DNA from: Geothrix sp.
GTDB taxonomy: Bacteria > Acidobacteriota > Holophagae > Holophagales > Holophagaceae
DNA length: 64,000 bases
Direction of reading: 5' to 3'
Assembly: GCA_030681515.1 (NCBI GenBank)
Contig: JAUXSE010000047.1
Span: forward strand, 1-64,000
Shown: in pieces, positions 1-43,890 of the stretch
Layout: each line of letters begins with the position of its first letter
Position numbering within the stretch: position 1 is the stretch's first letter
The notes under the pieces: model-generated
What the model was told of the DNA's origin: nothing
Databases searched by the model: none
What the model saw: the letters and a program-made list of their open reading frames with translations, nothing else
Position numbers and translations under genes: made by a program

Positions 1-85
1 TCGCCCGAGGCTTGAATCCCAACTCCAGCTTCGCCTGGATCATTGCTCGTTCCTCGCAACTCAGATGTGTGTAGTGTTTTCCCAT
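1..85 (-). CDS. IS30-family transposase, N-terminal fragment running off the window
   Basis: On the minus strand an ATG at 85-83 opens a frame that stays open to the window edge and gives 28 residues starting MGKHYTHLSCEERAMIQ. This N-terminus (GKHYxHLSxEER, then a helix-turn-helix region) is typical of IS30-family transposases, which carry a DDE catalytic domain further downstream, outside the window. The fragment is short, so the family assignment rests on this one motif. The gene faces away from the enoyl-CoA hydratase at 242, as expected for an element inserted just upstream of it. Confidence 0.7.
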   Translation of the reverse strand, partial: MGKHYTHLSCEERAMIQAKLELGFKPRA

Positions 86-131
86 GCAACCATTCTTTCT
101 GAAGAATGTTGCACTTGGGGATTGAGCGCGC
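1..131. mobile_element. Right-hand edge of an IS30-family insertion sequence
   Basis: The transposase start lies about 25-45 bp inside a probable terminal inverted repeat around 100-128, which contains GTTGCACTTGGGGATTGAG; IS30-family ends often carry a TTGCACTT-like word. The AT-rich word-array repeat begins directly after it, at about 133. The exact boundary cannot be set without the other end of the element, so the end coordinate is approximate. Confidence 0.5.
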
Positions 132-132
132 C

Positions 133-241: not shown

Positions 242-1030
242 ATGTCCTCTCCCATCCGCTTCGAGATCCGCGACCGCATCGCCACGCTGACGCTGGACCG
301 GCCGGACAAGCTGAATGCGCTGGTGCCGGAGATGCGCGAGGGCTTTGATGAGGCCCTGGCGAAGGCGGCCGGGCCAGGCGTGAAGGCGCTACTGCTGCGG
401 GGAGTGGGACGGGCCTTCTGCGCGGGGGGCGACATCGGCTGGATGGCGAAGGCACTGGCCGAAGGCCGCTGGGACGAGATGGAAGCCCTGCTGGATCTGG
501 GCGTCGCCGTCGCTCACGGGTTGGCCACGCTCCCCAAGCCCGTGGTGGCCGTGATCCAGGGACCGGCGGCCGGCGCCGGCATGAGCCTGGCCCTCTGCGC
601 GGATCTGCGGATCGCCACCAGTGAGGCCCTGTTCGGCATGGCCTTCGTGAAGCTCGGCCTGCATCCCGATTGGGGCGGCAGCGTCATGCTATCGCGCCTG
701 GTGAATCCGGCCATCGCGGGGGAACTGATGCTGCTCGGCGATACCTTGGATGCGGCCCGGGCCCAGGCCCTGGGTCTCGTGAATCAGATCGTGCCCGCGG
801 ATCGCCTGGAGGCCGCCGTCGAAACCCTCAGCCACCGCCTCGCCGCCGGGCCCGCCGAGACCTTCGCCCGCATCAAGACCACCCTGCTGCGTAACCAGGG
901 CCTGGACGCCGGAAGCCTCCGCGCCCGCCTCGAAGCCGAAGGCGCCCAGATGAAGGCCGCCATGCGCCACCCCGATGCGAAGGAGGGCCTGGCCGCCTTC
1001 CTGGAGAAGCGGGCGCCGAGGTTCGCCTGA
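242..1030 (+). CDS. Enoyl-CoA hydratase/isomerase family protein (PaaG-like crotonase)
   Basis: 262 residues, the usual crotonase length. The CoA/oxyanion-hole segments are clear: RAFCAGGDIGWM and GPAAGAGMSLALCADLR. At the position of the two catalytic glutamates of true hydratases it reads AFVKLGLHPDWGGS, so the first Glu is missing and an Asp is present. That pattern is typical of PaaG and other enoyl-CoA isomerases rather than hydratases. It therefore probably moves a double bond or opens an epoxide on an acyl-CoA in fatty-acid or aromatic degradation; the substrate is unknown. The start at 242 is preferred over an in-frame ATG at 167 because TTGGAG lies 5-6 bases upstream and the extra segment would be encoded by repeat DNA. 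Confidence 0.88.
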   Translation: MSSPIRFEIRDRIATLTLDRPDKLNALVPEMREGFDEALAKAAGPGVKALLLRGVGRAFCAGGDIGWMAKALAEGRWDEMEALLDLGVAVAHGLATLPKPVVAVIQGPAAGAGMSLALCADLRIATSEALFGMAFVKLGLHPDWGGSVMLSRLVNPAIAGELMLLGDTLDAARAQALGLVNQIVPADRLEAAVETLSHRLAAGPAETFARIKTTLLRNQGLDAGSLRARLEAEGAQMKAAMRHPDAKEGLAAFLEKRAPRFA

Positions 1031-1379
1031 AAGCAGGGACAGGATTTACAGAATGAAATGCTGGATTAACAGGATTACCTAATTATCCGCGAGACTCAGC
1101 CATCACTTTTCAAGATCAAAAGCTGAAACCACAGATGACGGTGCCCACACCTGCGAAGCACCCACCAGAACAGTCCAGCGATTCGTGCATTTAATCTGTG
1201 TGAATCGGTGGAATCTGTGGATCCACGGTCCTTTCTGCGACATCTGCGGTTGAACGATTTCAAGGCTGAGCGTGGCCGACAATCAGGCAGGATTAAAGCC
1301 CAAAAAACAAGATCTGTCTTTGACGTTTTAATCCTGTTAATCCTTCAAATCCTGTTAATCCTGTCTCCGCTTTTCAGGC
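1026..1379. repeat. Nested double inverted repeat filling a convergent gap
   Basis: The 343-bp gap between two convergent genes holds no gene. Outer arms are 1026-1077 and about 1326-1379: both contain AACAGGATTA words and both end in CTGAAAGC / GCTTTTCAG, so they include the stop codons of the two flanking genes. Inner arms are 1119-1140 (AAAGCTGAAACCACAGATGA) and 1191-1252 (ATCTGTG, AATCTGTGG, ATCTGCGG). The word units are about 9 bp and imperfect. I infer a bidirectional 3'-end structure. Confidence 0.8.
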
Positions 1380-29910: not shown

Positions 29911-29949
29911 TGACCTACCCGCTTATCGGCTTGCCTCAGCCTGAAAAGC

Positions 29950-43504: not shown

Positions 43505-43570
43505 TCGGCTAGGCAGGTCGCTCGAACAGCGGAACTCAGCGCTCACCGGCGAAAGACAAAACCCTTTGCA

Positions 43571-43890
43571 ACCACCGATGAACACCGATGAACACCGATG
43601 AACTCCGATAAAGCCATGCCTGGTTTTCGGGGAACCTCAGCCCAACCCTTTTCAATACAAAAAGCTGGAACCACAGATTCCACAGAATTCACAGATTCGG
43701 CGCCGCCCCAACGCGCATGGGCCCGCCAAAGGCGGCTTCCGGCCTCGCCGGAAGTGATCCCAGGGGCTCCTGCATCGCGTCCCAAAAAGCGCGGGTCAGG
43801 CGCCCCCGGGATACAGCCCATGCTTCCGAAGCGGACGATCCAAGCTTGATCGGTGTTCATCAGCTTTGATCGGTGTTCATCGGTGTTAAG
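43571..43890. repeat. ACACCGATGA word-array inverted repeat in a convergent gap
   Basis: The 411-bp gap (43505-43915) holds no gene. Left arm 43571-43612: three to four 10-bp CACCGATGAA units. Right arm 43844-43890: GATCGGTGTTCATC twice and CATCGGTGTT. Between them, 43661-43700 is a second array, AAAGCTGGAACCACAGATTC followed by CACAGAATTCACAGATT, without a matching right arm that I can find. The remaining interior has no clear structure. Confidence 0.85.

Follow-up and report, generated by a model that had tools for sequence, protein, structure and literature searches.

Positions 1025 to 1379 of the window, by which we mean the whole 64,000-nucleotide stretch of Geothrix DNA analyzed here, span the gap between two convergent genes, one for an enoyl-CoA hydratase/isomerase (crotonase) on the plus strand and one for a bacterial PH-domain protein on the minus strand. 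The gap holds a long palindrome whose outer arms (1025 to 1077 and 1288 to 1379) are inverted arrays of the 9-nt word AACAGGATT, and we refer to this dispersed element as type A. The left arm (1025 to 1077, plus strand) is defined by the inverted pairs I1, I5, and I9 and by the genome-wide count of its words against a reversed control. The AATCCTGTT words of the right arm (1329 to 1379, minus strand) are defined by inverted pairs and by the fold of the joined flanks, which also places the original loop of the outer hairpin at 1296 to 1328. The outer pairing of 1030 to 1054 with 1349 to 1373 is 84% complementary, the inner pairing of 1063 to 1077 with 1329 to 1343 is perfect, and either strand folds as one long nested hairpin (z, −5.7 for the plus strand and −7.2 for the minus strand; 0/100 shuffles equal). 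The nested inverted repeat described in the original prediction, which had proposed folding both strands, is therefore real. When two arm words in tandem (ACAGGATTAACAGGATT) were searched in the genome with up to 3 mismatches, 54 matches were obtained versus 3 for the reversed control, and these cluster, as palindromes or inverted pairs, at numerous sites. A search of the window for known RNA families returned a tRNA as the sole match.

Both stop codons lie in the outermost bases of the arms, as had been predicted: the TGA of the crotonase gene at 1028 to 1030 on the left, and the TCA of the minus-strand PH-domain gene, which ends at 1374, at 1374 to 1376 on the right. Relatives without the hairpin end the crotonase gene near the same position, and hence the stop codons inside the arms are best read as an element that abuts two gene ends.

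A second palindrome of the same family (133 to 230) lies upstream of the crotonase gene. Its left side is interrupted by the end of an IS30-like element (1 to 132; HTH_38 and rve domains), which directly abuts the type A palindrome at position 132. All five ends that we saw of the IS30-like element (window 1 to 132, L012, L026, L010, and L019) abut halves of type A palindromes, so the element seems to prefer these palindromes as targets.

An IS1595-type MITE inside the type A palindrome

The original prediction recognized an outer and an inner word array correctly but missed a third layer between them. This is a 210-bp insert (1078 to 1287) with the ends CCTAATTATCCGCGAGACTCAGCC and GGCTGAGCGTGGCCGACAATCAGG, flanked by two exact copies of the 8-bp sequence CAGGATTA (1070 to 1077 and 1288 to 1295). 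The insert has no coding capacity; congeners yielded a transposase gene. In one of them (G027), the same ends enclose a 1.15-kb element (L300) with an IS1595-family transposase (PF12760, PF12762, and NF033547), which in that copy is split over two reading frames. Related inserts occur across Geothrix, and 16 of the 22 copies with readable flanks in the genus have an 8-bp duplication that matches at 7 or 8 of the 8 bases, compared with 1 of 440 shifted controls; full copies without matching flanks (L251, L252, L253, and L300) were retained in this count. The copies of the insertion sequence in G023 have an 8-bp duplication as well. IS1595 family members duplicate 8 bp of their target. Because of the ends shared with the IS1595-family element and the 8-bp duplications, we assign the insert to the IS1595-type MITEs.

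The duplicated sequence is the outer arm's own, and the insert lies within the inner left arm. Removing the MITE and one duplicate yields a 139-nt hairpin with a z of −11.7, and the target of the MITE was therefore a complete type A palindrome. Several other MITE copies also sit in type A palindromes, with the duplications TAACAGGA, TCCTGTTA, or CAGGATTA.

The second, different word array that had been predicted inside the outer one is present within the MITE. Its CACAGAT-type word ACCACAGAT lies at 1128 to 1136 with inverted relatives at 1213 and 1242; it is not enriched in the window (10 matches versus 8.5 expected) and stands out by its arrangement only. The left arm AACCACAGATGACG (1127 to 1140, plus strand) and the right arm CGACATCTGCGGTT (1238 to 1251, minus strand) form the inverted pair I12, and the inverted words AATCTGTGTGAATCGGTGGAATCTGTGGATCCA lie between them (1193 to 1225, minus strand; direct repeat D7 and inverted pair I17). 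The array recurs in other MITE copies; it is an internal part of the MITE, which moved as a unit, and it arrived aboard it. Stepwise insertion, as first proposed, thus holds for the nesting, given the exact 8-bp duplication and the hairpin restored on removal, but not for an array inserted on its own, the vehicle being the MITE.

In the other copies a GC-rich palindrome often occupies the center, which is absent from the window copy. This palindrome (GCATGGGCCCGCCGAAGGCGG ... GCCCATGC; L200, L392, L394, and L250 to L259) is central in many copies and also lies beside GxxExxY genes with ATCACCG arms, adding a further nested layer. Elsewhere in the window, positions 29921 to 29941 match the MITE-end pattern with 3 mismatches, and positions 43570 to 43690 hold a word array of CACCGATGAA repeats followed by a piece that resembles the interior of an IS1595-type MITE with CACAGATT words.

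Nuclease genes between inverted word arrays

Word arrays of this kind also flank genes. All five GxxExxY (PF13366) genes in the genome of the window (G000) lie between inverted word arrays, and one of them (G000:C60:14636-15175) has the very word of the palindrome described here. We scored a locus as armed when its 5′ flank matched the reverse complement of its 3′ flank with a score of at least 35, and we compared these loci with cross pairs, i.e., mismatched flank pairs. In Geothrix, 31 of 34 GxxExxY loci were armed versus 2.3% of cross pairs, from which orthologous loci were excluded. In 16 distant genomes, picked because type A hairpins had already been found in them, arms were present at 20 of 30 loci versus 2.7% of cross pairs, and the remaining 10 genes had no arms at the threshold used. 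This set includes Gammaproteobacteria, Burkholderiales, Chloroflexi, KSB1, Spirosoma, Chthoniobacterales, Neomarinimicrobiota, and an archaeon. The residues expected of a PD-(D/E)XK nuclease, the E of GxxE, the D, and ExK, do not vary among the 31 proteins that we examined; as the GxxExxY and ELK motifs had helped in picking them, independent confirmation comes from the D alone.

Genes for S23 proteins (PF05635), which form a four-helix bundle, occur in the same setting. Both S23 genes in the genome of the window lie between inverted words, as do 11 of 21 matches in Geothrix, some of them truncated at the end of a contig and some entered twice. The S23 arms (L203, L204, and L234 to L249) are made of other words (TATCAGC-, TTCAGTC-, and GGCAGTT-like), and therefore this cargo seems to have its own word set. 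The counts establish statistically that the association of word arms with GxxExxY genes holds in several phyla and that the association with S23 genes is less regular. In one further case (L015, 1035 to 1720), type A arms enclose an open reading frame of about 178 codons (G000:C7:49040-49707) without a match in Pfam or NCBIfam, perhaps another kind of cargo.

The arm word follows the clade of the protein. A tree of 121 GxxExxY proteins required 38 changes of arm word, compared with a minimum of 75 in 500 shuffles. After thinning to below 75% identity (n = 51) there were 17 changes versus a shuffled minimum of 26, and after thinning to below 60% identity (n = 32) there were 13 versus 15, values reached by none of 2,000 shuffles in either case; sorting into word classes was done with a simple script, and some classes are broad. 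The AACAGGATT-armed proteins of Geothrix, Spirosoma, Allochromatium, a gammaproteobacterium, and Chthoniobacterales stand near each other in the thinned tree, at only about 46 to 59% identity; in two further loci classed with this word (L291 and L214), the words are mixed. In DNA free of constraint, a 9-nt word would hardly survive such protein divergence, and it is a reasonable inference from these sequences that the word is recognized by the GxxExxY protein or a partner. The agreement between word and clade could partly stem from joint inheritance.

The number of type A words also varies with the gene. Congeners contain between 0 and 44 of these words per genome. An A-armed gene is present in seven genomes (G000, G004, G005, G010, G022, G028, and G031); these contain 19 to 44, a count that includes about 4 to 5 words in the arms of the gene-carrying copy itself, versus a median of 2 in the other 40 (Mann-Whitney P = 4e−5). 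Five genomes (G026, G027, G013, G020, and G039) are exceptions, with many A words and no A-armed gene found; most of these are fragmented assemblies in which part of the GxxExxY loci is readable.

Occupied and empty slots across the genus

The slot between the crotonase and PH-domain genes is filled differently among Geothrix species. A type A word is present in the genome of the window and in G004, a CACCGATG-type word in G025, and another word in G032; none was found in others, and many congeners have no hairpin of any kind there. In the comparison with related strains that had been suggested at the outset, stepwise nesting is supported by G004, in which the outer hairpin stands without the MITE. 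We considered G004 as the plain, unfilled version of the window site and rejected this reading, as the tree does not place G004 sister to G000. The two species may therefore have acquired their A hairpins at this slot independently, and slot S3 (on C20 in G000) offers a cleaner pair: it holds a plain A hairpin in G000, G001, G002, G003, G005, and G010 and, in G004, an A hairpin filled by the MITE with the duplication TAACAGGA.

Between ftsA and ftsZ (L198, L356, and L357), which are an essential pair of cell-division genes, CACGGAGA arms with a GxxExxY gene are present in G000 and G030, the same arms only in G004, and nothing in ten others. At slots S1 and S2 (L320 to L331 and L340 to L351), many congeners have palindromes of differing words (CACAGATT, CGCAGATG, CACGGAGA, CGCGAATG, CGCAGAGG, and others) and some have none. 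The two arms match more within than between species, the observed sum being reached by 2 of 40,320 and 5 of 5,040 permutations. In empty congeners the genes directly adjoin or overlap, and the empty S2 is an overlapping ATGA stop/start. The word palindromes at the four slots thus differ in presence or absence between species, and we found neither exact ends nor a target duplication for them. This pattern may reflect repeated insertion at favored slots or the replacement of one word palindrome by another.

Origin of the palindromes and comparison with known systems

Several other readings of the outer palindrome have to be weighed. It might serve mainly as a two-way transcription terminator for the convergent genes, with the hairpin under selection, and a strong hairpin at such a place, with an A-rich outer end (GAAAGC) and a T-rich one (GCTTTTC), is what one would look for. 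We regard this as quite unlikely: a scan for consensus terminators returned no site at the outer arms, many congeners do without a hairpin at the slot, and the orientation of neighboring genes shows no convergent enrichment (12 convergent, 50 codirectional, and 9 divergent, versus a background of 39, 84, and 32). It is very hard to maintain that the word palindromes belong to the REP or REPIN elements that a RAYT (Y1) transposase mobilizes. They share with these a short length, a scattered intergenic distribution, and a use as targets by insertion sequences, but the genome has no match to Y1_Tnp (PF01797) in a search that was positive in E. coli and four other controls.

The palindromes could also be passive repeats that are kept symmetrical by template switching or slippage at quasi-palindromes and that lie near GxxExxY genes because both share tolerated intergenic DNA. 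Mutual correction of the arms would give just what is seen at the same slot in different species, namely, arms that match within a species and words that differ between species. It would not lead one to expect the recurrence of a single word at numerous unrelated places within a genome and across distant phyla, GxxExxY genes between matching arms far above the level of cross pairs, a word that follows the protein clade, or a copy number of A words that follows the A-armed gene. For these reasons we consider passive repeats an improbable explanation.

We think it probable that the feature belongs to an undescribed family of nuclease-associated palindromic elements, as a member that lacks cargo and was split by an IS1595 MITE. 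The word arrays resemble the terminal parts of a mobile element of a kind not yet described, and we infer from their association with GxxExxY genes that the nuclease mobilizes them. We hypothesize that each element family has a nuclease that recognizes the family's word within the arms of the palindrome and that its action there would carry copies with and without the gene into intergenic slots, whether new or already occupied. The chemistry could be cleavage of the hairpin, copying during repair, or some other route. The window palindrome would be a gene-free copy spread in this way: a type A palindrome of inverted AACAGGATT words presumably came to occupy the gap exactly between the two convergent genes. 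An IS1595-type MITE then landed in its inner left arm, duplicating CAGGATTA. Nested repeats of this sort are explained by the palindromes serving as targets into which IS1595 MITEs and IS30-like elements insert.

More tentatively, the elements may represent a widespread and undescribed class of mobile palindromes, in which arms of 9- to 10-nt words are read by the element's own GxxExxY PD-(D/E)XK nuclease, which would drive the copying of gene-carrying and gene-free hairpins, including cases in which one word palindrome takes the place of another at a fixed intergenic slot. Our literature search with the word strings and family names, which covered few subscription journals, returned no account of word arrays or of GxxExxY mobility, and on MITEs it yielded nothing beyond general statements. 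In the literature searched, GxxExxY proteins are catalogued without a role, and the intergenic word arrays of environmental microbes are likewise without an account. Linking the two makes both testable, in the form of a compact mobile palindrome that pairs a nuclease with the word it recognizes.

Judging by its sequence, the inner insert is of a known kind. Like other IS1595-family MITEs, it has the ends of the genus's IS1595 element, an 8-bp duplication, no gene, and many copies; unlike them, it carries a word palindrome inside, and several of its copies lie within type A palindromes. In the long form, including a copy with the arms of our palindrome, the gene belongs to the GxxExxY proteins (TIGR04256; Pfam PDDEXK_3, PF13366), which have been catalogued as a protein family only, with neither word arrays nor mobility in the literature searched. 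The intervening sequences of 23S rRNA carry a gene (S23) in a stem loop. Geothrix S23 genes resemble them in lying between inverted word arrays (11/21 matches), but these copies are in intergenic DNA and have other words, and the feature in the window has no gene. In outline, the system is also like REPIN/RAYT: the genome has short, gene-free palindromes in its intergenic DNA together with the gene of a cognate enzyme that is proposed to move them. It differs in that there is no RAYT gene, the gene between the arms is of the PD-(D/E)XK type, and the stems consist of arrayed 9-nt words, different from family to family.
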